Shown here in pieces: positions 2,324-27,681 of a DNA stretch of 64,000 bases. The position numbers were made by a program, and so were the translations under genes. Under the pieces are notes generated by a model, which had not been told where the DNA came from, searched no databases, and was given only the letters and a program-made list of their open reading frames with translations. Each line of letters opens with the position of its first letter. Within the stretch, counting starts at the first letter, position 1. This DNA is from an uncultured bacterium (lineage in GTDB: Bacteria > Bacillota > Clostridia > Lachnospirales > Lachnospiraceae), in the NCBI GenBank assembly GCA_947383005.1, contig CANDBT010000013.1:37639-101638 (forward strand), written 5' to 3'.

Positions 2324-3883
2324 ATGGCAGAAACGATATATTGGAAACCACCGGCGTTTGAAGTCCCCAGGGCGGTAGTTTTTGGAAGGCAGGGATATGA
2401 AGGGGAGTATGAGCTTTGCGGGCGCAAAAAATTGGGGAGATTTGTTCCTGGGAACACACCGGATATTGTGCTGTTTTCCTCAATTGTCTCCCGAAAACAG
2501 GGGGAGTTTGGGATAGTGGAAAGCCGCTGTTTTTATCGGGATTTGGGCAGCAAGAATGGTACATGGATTGGAGATGTGCATTATAGAGGAGAAAATAGCA
2601 CATGCGAACTTTTTGATGGCGACGTACTGTCCTTTTGCCCTGGCGGCGGCAGGGACAATCCACAGGAAATCATACTTTTGCTTACCGGGGACGCAAAACG
2701 GAGGGAGTGGAAATCCATCCCTTTTTCCGACAAAATTGCCGGGATTACCATAGGCCGCGGCTTGGGGGATTTGTCCCTTGAGGAGGAGACGGTTTCAGAA
2801 AAGCATGCCGTTTTTTTTCACGCCCGGCAGGGATGGGCGATTATGGATTGCGGAAGCAAAAACGGCGTTTTTTGTAATGGCCGGAAGGTAGAGGGCAATG
2901 CCTGCTTAAATCCTCTGGATGTCCTCCGTATAGGAGATGTGTGGTTTGTTTATACCGAGGAGGGATTGTGGATGGGGCGGAAGATGCCGGCAGCGGACCG
3001 GCAGGAGGCAGCAGAAAAACCTTCTTTTTCGGTATCCTCATCCAGCATAGAGGAGGGGAATTATCTGTCCATATCGATTGAGGAACGGAATGTATGGCAA
3101 AGGTTTAAGAAAAAAACGTTGCTGAAAGATATCCATTTAACCATAGCCGACGGGGAGATGGTGCTGGTTTTGGGCGGTTCCGGTGCGGGCAAAACGACAT
3201 TTATGAATGCGGTTATGGGCTATGAGAAGGCGGACGGGGCCATGGTTTACGGTGATCGGAATATTTATGAAGAATATCAGCAGATGAAGTATGAGATTGG
3301 CTTTGTTCCTCAGCAGGATCTGCTCCGGGAAACGGACAGTGTTTATGAAACGCTGAAAAATGCCGCTATGCTCCGGCTCCCCGTTTCTTTTCCAGAAACG
3401 AAACGTTTGGAACGGGTAGAAGAGGTTTTAGCCATTATGGGGCTGAAGCCGGAGCAGGATTCCCTGGTATCCAAACTGTCCGGAGGCCAGCGCAAGCGGT
3501 TGAGCATTGCCGTGGAATTTATCAGTGATCCAAAGCTGTTTTTTTTGGATGAGCCGGATTCCGGCCTTGACGGGATTATGTCCAGGAGCCTGATGGAGAA
3601 TCTGCGTCAGATTGCCGATACGGGGAAAATCGTTATGGTAATTACGCATGCTCCGGATCGGGCGGCGGATTTGTTTCATAAGGTTGTGGTTTTGGCCAAA
3701 AGTACAAAAGACCAAAGCGGCCATCTGGCATTTTTCGGGACGGTAGAAGAGGCATATGCTTTTTTTGATACAGACAGTCTGGAGGGAGTAGTCCGGCGGA
3801 TTAACCGCGCCGACGAAGGCGGGGACGGCCGGGCGGACGAGTATATCCGTAAGTTTGCGGCGGGGCGGTTTGGCTTTCACTGA
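2324..3883 (+). CDS. Double-FHA-domain ABC transporter ATPase
   Basis: 519 aa from an ATG preceded by AGGAGGAGAGG; longer in-frame starts overlap the LRR gene and lack a site. Two FHA domains come first: residues about 37-105 (SRKQ, DLGSKNGT) and about 142-210 (SEKHA, DCGSKNG). FHA domains bind phosphothreonine peptides. An ABCG-like ATPase domain begins near residue 250, with Walker A GGSGAGKTT at about 284-292, signature LSGGQRKR and Walker B FFLDEPDSG. The order resembles mycobacterial Rv1747, but here the membrane part is a separate gene 29 bp downstream. It probably powers an exporter gated by Ser/Thr phosphorylation (inference from the family). No kinase is visible in the window. Confidence 0.88.
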   Translation: MAETIYWKPPAFEVPRAVVFGRQGYEGEYELCGRKKLGRFVPGNTPDIVLFSSIVSRKQGEFGIVESRCFYRDLGSKNGTWIGDVHYRGENSTCELFDGDVLSFCPGGGRDNPQEIILLLTGDAKRREWKSIPFSDKIAGITIGRGLGDLSLEEETVSEKHAVFFHARQGWAIMDCGSKNGVFCNGRKVEGNACLNPLDVLRIGDVWFVYTEEGLWMGRKMPAADRQEAAEKPSFSVSSSSIEEGNYLSISIEERNVWQRFKKKTLLKDIHLTIADGEMVLVLGGSGAGKTTFMNAVMGYEKADGAMVYGDRNIYEEYQQMKYEIGFVPQQDLLRETDSVYETLKNAAMLRLPVSFPETKRLERVEEVLAIMGLKPEQDSLVSKLSGGQRKRLSIAVEFISDPKLFFLDEPDSGLDGIMSRSLMENLRQIADTGKIVMVITHAPDRAADLFHKVVVLAKSTKDQSGHLAFFGTVEEAYAFFDTDSLEGVVRRINRADEGGDGRADEYIRKFAAGRFGFH

Positions 3884-4819: not shown

Positions 4820-5081
4820 CAGTACTGCATTGCGGAAATAACAGTGAATACAGCGCTTGATATTTTCGTCATCTGTGCGTCTGCAAAGCGACGTTCTACA
4901 CTCCGTTCCGGTCCTTGCTGAACAAGCGCCACTGGCGCTTAGCAACGTAGCGGTGCCTACGTCTAGCTTTGCAGGCGTGCAGAGGGCGGAAATAGCGAGT
5001 GCCGAATTCACTGAAATTTCCGCAAGGTAGTACTAGTTCCCCTATCATCTGGACTTTTATGTGCATTGCACAAACAATGTA
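4820..5081. repeat. Gene-free stretch with small hairpins
   Basis: No credible gene is seen here. Two short hairpins stand side by side: AAGCGCC/GGCGCTT (4924-4930 with 4934-4940) and ACGTAG/CTACGT (4945-4950 with 4957-4962). They look like intergenic palindromic debris. The remainder is unassigned. Confidence 0.4.
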
Positions 5082-5110
5082 TTGACATACTTCCTTCTGG
5101 GCAATATTAT
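5082..5110 (+). promoter_or_regulatory. Promoter of the dinJ-yafQ operon
   Basis: TTGACA at 5082-5087, a 17-bp spacer and TATTAT at 5105-5110, followed by an AAGGAG site at 5121 and the antitoxin ATG at 5135. DinJ-type antitoxins usually autoregulate, but no clear operator palindrome was identified. Confidence 0.7.
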
Positions 5111-5134
5111 GTTGTAAAGGAAGGAGTTGATGAT

Positions 5135-5407
5135 ATGGCAACGACTAATATAACAATGAGAATGGACGAGGATTTGAAGTTTCAGTTACAAGAACTTGTA
5201 TCTAATTTTGGAATGGATATGACAACTTTTTTTACAGTAGCAGCAAAACAGGCCGTAAGAGAACAACGAATACCATTTGCAATTTCTATGGATGTACCTA
5301 ACGTAGATACAAACAGAGCCATTGATGATGTAAGGCATGGAAGAAATTTGAGCCGTTCCTTTTCTTCTGTGGAAGAATTAATGGAGGATTTGAATGCTGA
5401 AGATTAG
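5135..5407 (+). CDS. dinJ: RelB/DinJ-family antitoxin
   Basis: 90 aa starting at an ATG 8 bp after AAGGAG. The first 50 residues form the ribbon-helix-helix DNA-binding domain typical of DinJ/RelB (TNITMRMDEDLK, then NFGMDMTTFF). The C-terminal part, with DVRHGRN and SSVEELMEDL, is the usual toxin-binding tail. It overlaps the toxin gene by 14 bp, the standard antitoxin-first arrangement, and should both neutralise YafQ and repress the operon. The surrounding DNA is visibly more AT-rich than the flanking chromosome, in line with acquisition together with the nearby integrase remnant. Confidence 0.88.
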   Translation: MATTNITMRMDEDLKFQLQELVSNFGMDMTTFFTVAAKQAVREQRIPFAISMDVPNVDTNRAIDDVRHGRNLSRSFSSVEELMEDLNAED

Positions 5408-5666
5408 GTATCATACTTCTTTTAAGAAAGATTATAAAAAGATTATCAAGAGAGGATATGATACAAAACTGATAGAAGACATTATTCAAAAATTAGCAAG
5501 AGACGAACAATTGCCAGAGAAAAATAAAGATCATCCTCTTGGTGGAGACTATAGTGGATGTAGGGAGTGTCATATAATGCCAGATTGGTTGCTGATTTAT
5601 GAAATTGACAATGGAGAATTGATATTATATCTGACAAGGACAGTAACGCACAGCGATTTGTTTTAA
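5394..5666 (+). CDS. yafQ: YafQ-family mRNA interferase toxin
   Basis: 90 aa, the usual size for the RelE/ParE superfamily YafQ branch. The N-terminus MLKIRYHTSFKKDYKK, the central HPLGGDYSGCRECHI and the end LTRTVTHSDLF match the YafQ pattern; the C-terminal His-Ser-Asp-Leu-Phe holds a catalytic histidine of the family. It should cleave mRNA on the ribosome when free of its antitoxin. It is intact in sequence and translationally overlapped with dinJ, so the pair is probably functional. Confidence 0.88.
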   Translation: MLKIRYHTSFKKDYKKIIKRGYDTKLIEDIIQKLARDEQLPEKNKDHPLGGDYSGCRECHIMPDWLLIYEIDNGELILYLTRTVTHSDLF

Positions 5667-5837: not shown

Positions 5838-6235
5838 ATGCTAAGAGGGTGTAGAACATTGCCAATGATGCCAAGTGCAGTAAACAATGTTCTGGAAAAT
5901 ATTGTAAACAAGTACAATAAAACGGCAGGAAAGGAATTAGTTCTCCCACACATATCGGCTCACAACCTTAAACATACTGGTTGTACAAGAATGGCAGAAG
6001 CTGGAATTGATCCAAAGGTATTGCAGTATATTATAGGAAGCAAAATCAGCTTCCTATAATCGGATTTACGGCGCAAAAGATGCGCCTTTTATCAAAATTT
6101 GCTTTGCAAATTCTGATAAGTTATATTATGGGGCATAGCAAAGTTGTCATTACTATGGAAGTGTATAACCATACGTTATCGGAACGTAACTGGAAAGAGA
6201 TGAGGAAAATGGAAAAAGTACGGCTGGTTGGGTGA
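5838..6235 (+). pseudogene. Tyrosine site-specific integrase, C-terminal fragment interrupted by a small insertion
   Basis: Codons from about 5865 read as the catalytic C-terminus of a Tn916/Tn1549-type tyrosine recombinase: PSAVNNVLENIV, then LPHISAHNLKHTGCTRMAEA and VLQYI. The frame is broken at 6035 by an insertion. Joining 6034 to 6130 restores YIMGHSKVVITMEVYNH and a TGA at 6233-6235. The catalytic H-x-x-H region, GH and tyrosine are therefore recognisable but split. The N-terminal two thirds are missing. It is the relic of an integrated element that may have carried dinJ-yafQ. Confidence 0.85.
6035..6129. mobile_element. About 87-bp three-hairpin insertion with 8-bp target duplication
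   Basis: TATATTAT occurs at 6027-6034 and again at 6122-6129, flanking 87 bp of foreign sequence. The insert holds three consecutive hairpins: GGAAGC/GCTTCC, GGCGCA/TGCGCC and TCAAAATTTGC/GCAAATTCTGA. It has no terminal inverted repeats and no ORF. Removing the insert plus one TATATTAT restores the integrase frame exactly, which is strong evidence that it inserted into a formerly continuous gene. Confidence 0.75.
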
Positions 6236-6844: not shown

Positions 6845-8506
<1,662 letters not shown>

Positions 8507-8512
8507 TTTACT

Positions 8513-8780
8513 ATGAAAGAGTTGCCCGGCAGCCATGGTGAATGCAAGCTTGCTTGCAATGAGCCATGGATATCGGGCAACCAAGCTGATATGAGCAAGT
8601 AGGCCGATAGGCCGGATTGCGAATAGCAGCGGCGATTGAGGGAGCGCCAAGGGCGCGGAACAATCGGCTTTCATAGGGCGGCAGGTGCAACGTCAAAGGT
8701 CGCAAGGAAGTTTATGATGAAAGAGTTGCCCGGCAGCCATGGTGAATGCAAGCTTGCTTGCAATGAGCCATGGATATCGG
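8513..8780. repeat. 64-bp exact direct repeat pair flanking a 140-bp spacer
   Basis: An identical 64-bp sequence occurs at 8513-8576 and 8717-8780. Each copy contains a hairpin (CCATGG outer stem, TGCAAGC/GCTTGCA inner stem). The 140 bp between them includes the repeated hairpin at 8633-8666. No gene is credible in this 314-bp gap between groEL and the next ORF. Confidence 0.8.
8633..8666 (+). repeat. Conserved GNGA/GGA-loop hairpin, copy 1 of 3
   Basis: CGATTG pairs with CAATCG outside, GCGCC with GGCGC inside, separated by a purine-rich internal loop and closed by a 3-nt loop. The same architecture recurs at 26281-26312 and 55653-55684. It lies 154 bp upstream of the next start codon. Confidence 0.6.
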
Positions 8781-15007: not shown

Positions 15008-16400
15008 TAATCTGGGACTGAAGGTTCTTTCTATCTTTTTAGCGTTTTTTATCTGGCTGGTGGTTGTGAATGTGTCTAACCCTCTGGTCAGCAGCAGCAG
15101 GGAAGTGACGCTGGAGATTGAAAATGATGCGGTACTGACTGCGGCGCGGCGGGCTTATGAAATCAGTGGCAAGAATACGGTGACAGTGGTTTTTGATATT
15201 CATACCCGGGACGAATATAAGATTCGGGCATCAGATTTCCGCGCGTATATTGATTTGTCCGAACTTTATGATGTGACGGGGTCGGTGCCTGTAAAGATAG
15301 AAGTACTCAACAACAACGATATTTATAAAAATGTTTCTTCTAAACCAAGTGTAGTCAGGGTGAAGACAGAAGAGCTGCAGTTAAAACCTTTTGAATTGCA
15401 GACTGATATACAGGGGCAGGCGGCGGACGGCTATGCTCTTAACGGTGTGATATTGTCACCGGAGACGGTGGAAGTGGAAGGCCCGATTTCCCAAGTCCGT
15501 TTGATTAATCATGTAGGCGTAAGAATCGACATAGACGGATTGACCAGTGATGACCAAGGAAAAGCGAAACCGGTATTTTATGATGCGAATGGCAATGAGC
15601 TGGAAGTGGATTCCCGAGTCCATACCAATGCGGATGAGTCCGGGGTTGATTATTATGTATTTATCAATAAGGTTAAAGAAGTGCCTTTGGATTTCCAGGT
15701 ATCCGGAAATGTTGCGGCCGGGTATCGTTATACAGGAGTAGAGTGTTCCAGGAAAAGCGTGTCGGTTATGGGAATGAAATCCAGCCTGGCGTCTTTAAAT
15801 ACAATTGTTATTCCCTCCTCTTATCTGGATATTGAAAGGGCCAGTGAGGATCGGGTAGTGACGGTAGATATCCGCGATTTTTTGCCGGAGGAAGTAGAAA
15901 TTGCGGAATCAGACAGCCCTATGGTGGAAATCCGGTTGAAAGTGGAGCCTCTGGTAAACAGAACCCTGCGTTTGAATTTAAGGGATATTAGTCAGGACGG
16001 ACGGACAGAAGATTGGGAATACCAGTTCATGCCATCTTGGGTAGATGTAACGGTACAGGGGTTGGAAGAAGAGCTGGATGAGCTGAAGGAAGAGGATTTA
16101 AGAGCTTCTGTAAATCTTGCGGGACTGCCTGTAGGAACACATTCGGGCAGTTTGCAGTTGGGCAGCAGCAACAGTTATACGGTACTTTCCTATTCGAATT
16201 TTCAGATAGAAGTGACTTCTCCCGGCAGTACCGAGGCGGAGAACCAGCCGTCAGAGCAGGAGCCGGGTTCTGAAAGTCCGGAAGGGAAAGAGTTGGTTCA
16301 GTCGCCGGCAGAAACCTCACCTGCGGCGGAGTCAGGGGCTGCAGTAGTAGCCGGGGCGGCGCCGGAATCTACGGCAGGGGGGCCGGCGCACTCCCAATAG
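14988..16400 (+). CDS. cdaR: CdaR (YbbR-domain regulator of CdaA)
   Basis: 470 aa. One N-terminal membrane helix (residues about 9-28) is followed by an extracytoplasmic region containing several YbbR repeats of about 80 residues, for example VEVEGPISQVRLI and VSVMGMKSSLASL. The last 50 residues are a Pro/Glu/Ser/Ala-rich disordered tail that looks variable. In other Firmicutes YbbR proteins bind CdaA and adjust its activity. It overlaps cdaA by 20 bp and is followed after 34 bp by ptsH. Confidence 0.92.
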   Translation: MKARLINNLGLKVLSIFLAFFIWLVVVNVSNPLVSSSREVTLEIENDAVLTAARRAYEISGKNTVTVVFDIHTRDEYKIRASDFRAYIDLSELYDVTGSVPVKIEVLNNNDIYKNVSSKPSVVRVKTEELQLKPFELQTDIQGQAADGYALNGVILSPETVEVEGPISQVRLINHVGVRIDIDGLTSDDQGKAKPVFYDANGNELEVDSRVHTNADESGVDYYVFINKVKEVPLDFQVSGNVAAGYRYTGVECSRKSVSVMGMKSSLASLNTIVIPSSYLDIERASEDRVVTVDIRDFLPEEVEIAESDSPMVEIRLKVEPLVNRTLRLNLRDISQDGRTEDWEYQFMPSWVDVTVQGLEEELDELKEEDLRASVNLAGLPVGTHSGSLQLGSSNSYTVLSYSNFQIEVTSPGSTEAENQPSEQEPGSESPEGKELVQSPAETSPAAESGAAVVAGAAPESTAGGPAHSQ

Positions 16401-26378: not shown

Positions 26379-27566
26379 ATGTGCGATATTTATATTTCCG
26401 ATTCCGTTCTCTATGTTGGCGTTGATGATAAAACGCTTGATTTGTTTGAGAGCCAGTATCCGGTTCCCAATGGGGTTAGCTACAATTCATATGTGATTTT
26501 AGATGATAAAATAGCTGTTTTGGATACAGTAGATGCCCGCGCGTCGGAGCAATGGTTTGATAATATAGACCGGATATTGGCCGGGCGTTCGGTAGATTAT
26601 CTGGTGGTTTCCCATTTGGAACCGGATCACGGGGCAAATATTGGGAATTTTATTTTACGGCATCCGGAAACAAGGATTGTGGGTAATGCAAAGACTTTTG
26701 GCATGATCAGTCAGTTTTTTGATTTGAACCTGGATGGCCGGAAAGTTGTGGTAAAGGAAGGAGATACACTGGATCTGGGCCATCATACCCTGCAGTTTTT
26801 TATGGCTCCTATGGTTCATTGGCCGGAGGTCATGGTCACTTATGAGCAGGCTGAAAAAATCCTTTTTTCTGCCGATGGATTTGGAAAATTCGGGGCTTTG
26901 GACACCGAGGAGGATTGGGCAGAGGAAGCTGCCCGCTATTATCTGAATATTGTAGGGAAATATGGTGTCCAGGTGCAAGCGTTGCTGAAAAAAGCCTCAT
27001 CATTGAATATATCTGTGATATGCCCGCTGCATGGGCCGATTTTAAAAGAAAATTTAGGTTACTATTTGAATAAGTATCAGGTATGGAGTTCTTATCAGCC
27101 GGAAAAGCATGGGGTTCTGGTGGCTTATGCTTCCATTCATGGAAATACCGCTCATAGCGCACGGCAGATGGCGGAGCTTCTGCGGGAAAAAGGAGAACAG
27201 GTGGAAGTAATCGACTTATCCCGGACGGATATGTCTTTGGCCGTTAGAAAAGCCTTCTATTATGATCGGATGGTTTTGGCGGCGGCTACTTATGACGGAG
27301 GGGTGTTTCCCAGCATGGAGGAATTTCTTCTTCATATAAAAGCGAAAAATTATCAGAAACGTACAATAGGCATGATGGAAAACGGCACTTGGGCGCCAAT
27401 GGCGGCCAAGGTTATGAGGAGCTATCTGGACGATATGAAGAATATCACTGTTTTAGATCCGGTAGTGACAATAAAATCAACGCTAAAGCCTGAAAACATA
27501 AAGGCAATGGAGGACTTGGCCGGGTTATTGTCCGGTTACTGTTCACAGGTATCCTGTGAACAGTAA
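26379..27566 (+). CDS. Flavodiiron protein (FprA-type)
   Basis: 395 aa, AAGGAG upstream. The metallo-beta-lactamase domain carries the diiron ligands His79-x-Glu81-x-Asp83-His84 (SHLEPDHGAN), a further His in APMVHWPE, an Asp in FSADGFG and a His in CPLHGP. From about residue 248 a flavodoxin domain begins with AYASIHGNTAHSA. The protein reduces oxygen or nitric oxide to water or nitrous oxide with electrons from rubredoxin or F420-type carriers. There is no rubredoxin domain fused or adjacent. It fits oxygen defence in a strict anaerobe. Confidence 0.93.
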   Translation: MCDIYISDSVLYVGVDDKTLDLFESQYPVPNGVSYNSYVILDDKIAVLDTVDARASEQWFDNIDRILAGRSVDYLVVSHLEPDHGANIGNFILRHPETRIVGNAKTFGMISQFFDLNLDGRKVVVKEGDTLDLGHHTLQFFMAPMVHWPEVMVTYEQAEKILFSADGFGKFGALDTEEDWAEEAARYYLNIVGKYGVQVQALLKKASSLNISVICPLHGPILKENLGYYLNKYQVWSSYQPEKHGVLVAYASIHGNTAHSARQMAELLREKGEQVEVIDLSRTDMSLAVRKAFYYDRMVLAAATYDGGVFPSMEEFLLHIKAKNYQKRTIGMMENGTWAPMAAKVMRSYLDDMKNITVLDPVVTIKSTLKPENIKAMEDLAGLLSGYCSQVSCEQ

Positions 27567-27681
27567 CCGCATATGCCCATATTAAATTGCCTTCGGCAAT
27601 GGGGCATATGCTTTGCTCCCATAATGATGTCTGCCCATGGTGTGAATAGTAACATTGTCCGAACGGTGACGAATATCCGCA

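Follow-up and report, generated by a model that had tools for sequence, protein, structure and literature searches.

A dispersed three-hairpin repeat of about 95 bp in Lachnospiraceae that probably inserts at a preferred AT-rich target

The present analysis concerns a stretch of 64,000 nucleotides (the window) from contig CANDBT010000013.1 of an uncultured Lachnospiraceae bacterium (assembly GCA_947383005.1). In this window an 87-bp insert, enclosed by two copies of the octamer TATATTAT (6027-6034 and 6122-6129), splits what reads as a tyrosine integrase gene. The insert belongs to a family of short structured repeats and recurs nearly unchanged at other places of the 4.99 Mb host genome. The explanation that we consider the most probable, although well short of certain, is that the element is a three-hairpin mobile repeat of about 95 bp that is non-autonomous, is directed to sites close to YTATAYTAY and is moved by an enzyme acting in trans.

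The integrase gene lies on the forward strand. Its left fragment (5838-6026) matches the Phage_integrase profile PF00589 (E 1.3e-8), while the right fragment (6122-6235, stop at 6233-6235) was assigned by reading YIMGHS...TMEVYNH from the sequence and by comparison with homologs from viral contigs. A pattern search for such homologs gave 30 stretches, three of which were confirmed. All three run continuously across the insertion point with VLQ-xIMGH...TM-xYNH, one of them as VLQYIMGHN...TMEVYNH. Since these homologs pass through the site unbroken, the gene is indeed interrupted by the insert. The right octamer is in frame as the integrase codons Y-I-M, and we infer from it that the window integrase carried TATATTAT before the insertion. 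At the corresponding position the three homologs have TATATCAT, GTCATCAT and GCCATTAT, of which only the first is close to the target. The earlier note on this DNA, made from the sequence alone, is thus borne out in regard to the interrupted gene and the octamer on both flanks.

A unit consists of (N)ATAYTA(Y)AGG, hairpin 1, CGGATTTAC, hairpin 2, TTTTATC, hairpin 3 and GATAAGYTATAYT. In the window copy, which lies on the forward strand, the left end TATATTAT (6027-6034, core ATATT at 6028-6032) overlaps hairpin 1 (6030-6060; ATTATAGGAAGC / GCTTCCTATAAT), as 6030-6034 also form the foot of this hairpin. The linker CGGATTTAC (6061-6069) is conserved in the alignments and unpaired in the predicted fold. 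It is followed by hairpin 2 (GGCGC...GCGCC) with a short T run (6070-6086), by hairpin 3 (TTTATC...GATAAG; 6088-6120), which begins inside this T run, and by the right end (6122-6129) with its core ATATT at 6123-6127. The predicted fold of the 103-nt stretch contains the three hairpins at -36.5 kcal/mol (z -6.75), and none of 200 shuffles was as good. Terminal inverted repeats are absent by eye from the window copy and the aligned copies, as the ends read ATAYTA(Y)AGG... and ...GATAAGYTATAYT. Three hairpins without terminal inverted repeats had already been proposed in the earlier note.

The fold is also supported by covariation in an alignment of 40 copies, namely the window copy and 39 of the 79 listed ones, which were picked by eye, leaving aside left-truncated and redundant copies among others. 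Compensatory changes on both sides occur in 22 of the 29 pairs and in all three hairpins (11 of 12 pairs in hairpin 1, 3 of 5 in hairpin 2 and 8 of 12 in hairpin 3). In the named structure 90.1% of the cells pair, and with a shifted partner the share is no higher than 44.7%. The covariation score of 0.354 (shuffled mean 0.129) was not reached by any of 500 shuffles; among the five measures, further pair types did least well, with 6 of 500 shuffles reaching it. In two related metagenome-assembled genomes (L269:2750-3000 and L275:1280-1530; flanks 98 and 93% alike) hairpin 3 is replaced by an unrelated palindrome at the same site, which suggests conversion between copies. The family therefore retains its fold while the sequence turns over.

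A search of the host genome with the insert gave 88 rows at E ≤ 10, weak and antisense rows included. With a covariance model built from 42 copies, 150 candidates were scored per genome, so that all counts are lower bounds. The host genome has at least 124 matches at E ≤ 0.01 (150 of 3,539 candidates scored), and two related genomes, G019 and G006, have at least 38 and at least 6. The possibility that there are no other copies anywhere, which the earlier note had named as fatal to its proposal, is thereby refuted. Within the genus, 8 of 24 genomes have matches and 16 have none. Over genome_contigs, a stricter first pattern had no match and a pattern of the conserved part matched at least 88 stretches, those listed being in Lachnospiraceae or in records labelled clostridia or unnamed bacteria. 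The carriers include Anaerocolumna, Lacrimispora, Lachnoclostridium phytofermentans, Clostridium sp. KNHs205, C. symbiosum and Hungatella, and each of 11 pattern-matched genomes searched with the covariance model has 2 to 65 matches.

In 54 pieces of the host genome, 128 units are organized in 83 arrays, 48 of which are single, 27 double, seven triple and one quintuple; 35 of the 83 thus hold two or more units. The spacing is 95 bp in 26 of 34 adjacent pairs. Since adjacent copies repeat at this distance, the flanking octamer is largely a constant junction of the family and not a random duplicated target. The identity of 23 adjacent full-length pairs ranges from 0.40 to 1.00 (nine at 1.00 after rounding), with a mean of 0.86 compared to 0.78 between arrays. 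There seem to be both tandem amplification and repeated insertion beside old copies. Hairpin 3 or hairpin 1 is often absent from truncated copies, and the comparison of the genomes G021 and G022 shows, as a partial deletion, one loss within the element. Most arrays (76 of 83) lie outside open reading frames (ORFs) of 120 amino acids or more, as found with a simple caller.

Each end carries the recurring core ATAYT (position 5 being T or C), and the two ends behave differently. On the left, the core base is complementary to the inner arm of hairpin 1 in all 95 units that were scored (84 T-A, 11 C-G; 31 of the 126 host units were not scorable) and pairs with it in 41 of 42 copies in the 42-copy alignment. 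The right core base is independent of this. Both ends were scored in 27 of the 83 arrays; 20 of these have T at both ends, and in six of the seven arrays with C at either end the two ends disagree. This count covers the host genome only, because the part from other genomes is biased (the search pattern required TATATTA at the right, and some loci were repeated). A true duplication would give two matching flanks wherever the element had newly inserted. As the left core tracks hairpin 1 and the right core does not, the two copies are probably of different origin: one end would be element-borne and the other part of a preferred target of about YTATAYTAY. The 8-bp target duplication of the earlier note is therefore not upheld, since the recurring core is only ATAYT and its ends are discordant, and the left octamer, which was taken there as a copy of the target, is part of the hairpin 1 stem.

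The preference extends beyond the core. In the host genome, the base after it (+1) is A in 30 of 42 cases and the next one T or C in 36 of 42, whereas the base before it (-1) is T in 33 of 54 and the one further out T or C in 44 of 54. The backgrounds for +1 A and -1 T are 14.8% and 21.5% in all sequence and 22.0% and 28.9% outside ORFs. With ATAYT sites outside ORFs as the reference, p is 1e-11 (+1), 4e-4 (+2), 9e-7 (-1) and 7e-8 (-2), and with the all-sequence background those for +1, +2 and -1 become smaller. The sequence YTATAYTAY, implied as the target, also forms the junction of neighbouring tandem units, and the extra matching bases beyond ATAYT would be explained by this resemblance of preferred targets to the element's own junction.

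Empty sites were found in a related genome, G006, each species being represented by one genome. In G019, L188:8849-8951 holds one unit, whereas two loci of G006 (L327 and L328) with corresponding flanks (132 bp at 89-92% and 72 bp at 86% identity) show a single ATATTAT. For L186:3367-3472, a second filled site of G019, the counterpart in G006 lacks the element and retains a single TATATTA. In both cases the related genome has a pre-existing ATATTA. Several further comparisons were left out as not clean, namely the L185, L186:15426 and L186:5072 arrays against G006, L123 (G006) against L187 (G019), L250 against L218, G021 against G022, and L111 against G012 and G023. The empty site in relatives that the earlier note had called for was thus found twice, and its suggestion of a small mobile palindromic element agrees with the many near-identical dispersed copies, the empty sites and the tandem arrays.

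We therefore propose a mechanism with the following steps. Insertion would be directed to pre-existing sites close to YTATAYTAY and would leave ATAYT at both ends, one from the element and one from the target. The mobilizing enzyme would act in trans and most likely recognize the element when folded or in its junction form, and joining at the ATAYT core would proceed by a site-specific or HUH-like cut-and-join rather than by a DDE transposase. Copies could then build up into tandem arrays in which neighbouring units share one ATAYT, because the ends of the element are good targets themselves and identical neighbours occur. ATATT|AY bears a possible likeness to TAATATT|AC, the nick site of some HUH replication proteins.

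Several observations weigh against this proposal. Neither the enzyme nor an excised form was seen. Adjacent units are often quite different, down to the identity of 0.40, and therefore not all arrays are simple amplifications. The match to the left arm is broken in one of the 42 aligned copies and in one T-G array in other genomes. The sample for end discordance is small (27 of 83 arrays, seven of them informative), and part of the apparent target preference could stem from bases of the element itself. The usable empty-site cases are limited to two, and in that of L186:3367-3472 a neighbouring unrelated repeat is missing too and a few bases differ at the left junction. An autonomous partner was looked for separately: ORFs of at least 60 amino acids within 1.5 kb of copies at 160 loci were clustered, and none of the 40 largest clusters appeared transposase-like when the beginning of each cluster's longest sequence was inspected visually.

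It is also possible, but clearly less probable, that the copies are hairpin cassettes spread throughout the Lachnospiraceae and moved by an undescribed trans-acting recombinase or nickase, which would act on a folded single strand or a circular form. In that case YTATAYTAY would be the circle junction as well as the target, and the short core homology would drive both integration and head-to-tail stacking. Such cassettes would be somewhat like those of integrons, without the array platform.

We consider it unlikely that the element of about 95 bp is moved by a Y1 (HUH) transposase as a REP- or IS200-IS605-type element, i.e. by single-strand peel-and-paste in which a guide within the element pairs with a short target. 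The hairpins and the short fixed target on one side would fit, the pairing of the left core with the inner arm recalls guide-target pairing, and the host genome has three Y1 matches. However, eight genomes that carry the element have no match to PF01797 (G061 with 52 copies, G063 with 23, G064 with 13, G065 with 65, G068 with 2, G069 with 13, G070 with 21 and G071 with 20), two of which, G061 and G070, are complete chromosomes by record title, while the other six are drafts or metagenome-assembled genomes and thus weaker evidence of absence. The same search found matches in 5 of 14 control genomes. Elements derived from IS200/IS605 have an orientation bias to the lagging-strand template. The arrays are indifferent to GC skew, as 42 of 83 run along the G-rich strand, and do not follow coding either (30 of 53 along the coding strand where coding is mostly one-sided). 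Moreover, the profile found no element near the local Y1 genes apart from two chance-level rows (E 0.87). Given the carriers without Y1 and the lack of a skew or coding-strand bias, REP/RAYT or IS200-like movement is unlikely to be general, and Y1/RAYT as general mobilizer is largely refuted. IS110 (bridge-RNA) was rejected as the general enzyme as well, since the carriers G019, G006, G061, G063, G068 and G070 have no match to PF01548; an IS110 transposase match is present in other carriers.

Comparably improbable is a functional structured RNA or regulatory element, which would have been spread by recombination and would have kept its folds for an RNA function in the host. The strong covariation, the location of most arrays outside longer ORFs and an orthologous array kept between two species (L225 and L229, about 90% flank identity) speak for such a function. 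On the other hand, one copy is inserted in a gene, two thirds of the genus genomes (16 of 24) lack any match, truncated copies are common, and the orientation to neighbouring genes is not consistent (28, 16, 11 and 11 across the four configurations in the 66 arrays with both neighbours). A known RNA family was rejected, since no Rfam family matched the element at the gathering score in the 64-kb window and 17 loci; the matches around it were only weak and sub-threshold (E 0.28-3.7).

Least probable is a classic miniature inverted-repeat transposable element (MITE) of a DDE insertion sequence with an AT-rich target duplication of 5-8 bp, for although direct repeats at the flanks, small size and many dispersed copies would suit it, the missing terminal inverted repeats, a flanking repeat that is nearly the same at all insertions with ends that differ in six of seven informative arrays, and the lack of a recognizable transposase among the inspected ORF clusters argue against it. 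Like the element, bacterial MITEs (RUP, NEMIS, EFAR and others) are short, non-coding and dispersed; unlike it, they have terminal inverted repeats, of 15-30 bp (PMC3733652). The insert, which the earlier note set apart from ordinary MITEs, shows neither such repeats nor a duplication that varies with the site and is identical on both sides.

The closest analogue that we found is bcr1 of the Bacillus cereus group, one of the group A repeats bcr1-bcr3. One source terms these repeats similar to MITEs (PMC3446304), and another counts Bcr1 among the MITEs with terminal inverted repeats (PMC3733652), which would be a difference from the present element. In both, mobility is tied to a fixed short AT-rich end motif, ATAYT here and TTTAT in bcr1. 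The host family differs, and the likeness seen is one of anatomy. Repetitive extragenic palindromic (REP) sequences and bacterial interspersed mosaic elements (BIMEs) with their REP-associated tyrosine transposases (RAYTs, Y1) are likewise intergenic hairpins with clustered copies and non-autonomous. REPs are put at 20-40 bp, and most have a GTAG or CGTC tag according to PMC3733652. The element differs in its length of about 95 bp, its three hairpins and its presence in genomes without Y1 matches; its ends have no such tag and show ATTA(Y) feet in the alignment (by eye).

We found no description of the repeat in the open-access literature searched, as far as its text was accessible. The suggestion of the earlier note that it might be undescribed can thus be maintained in a limited form, as there is neither an Rfam match at gathering score nor a fitting paper in that literature, and we rate the element as a new family of a known kind. 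It is abundant in some Lachnospiraceae and places structured DNA in their intergenic regions. Because it prefers a certain target, has discordant ends and does not depend on Y1 or IS110 enzymes, the movement of bcr1-type repeats becomes testable in culturable anaerobes. The element may also explain some broken genes and contig breaks in these assemblies, as two contigs of the host genome (C16 and C30) start inside copies.

Carriage of the element by a phage or plasmid was rejected, since a 653-bp region had no DNA match in phage and plasmid collections and the element pattern had no exact match in IMG/VR. Genes for a RelB-like antitoxin and a YafQ-like toxin adjoin the integrase remnant (window 5066-5666), and a Clostridiales-1 RNA lies immediately downstream of groEL (window 8511-8676). 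Another abundant repeat, about 160-190 bp long and with inverted-repeat-like ends (TAGTCCCTGAGAGG / CCTCTCAGGGAC), often occurs beside the 95-bp elements, for instance in G019 (L186:5165-5335, 15644-15831 and 3163-3358), and has dozens of matches in G006. A third short repeat, observed in the L160 flanks of 7555-7655, is shared by about a dozen pieces of the host genome, with one copy in the window at about 27534-27640.
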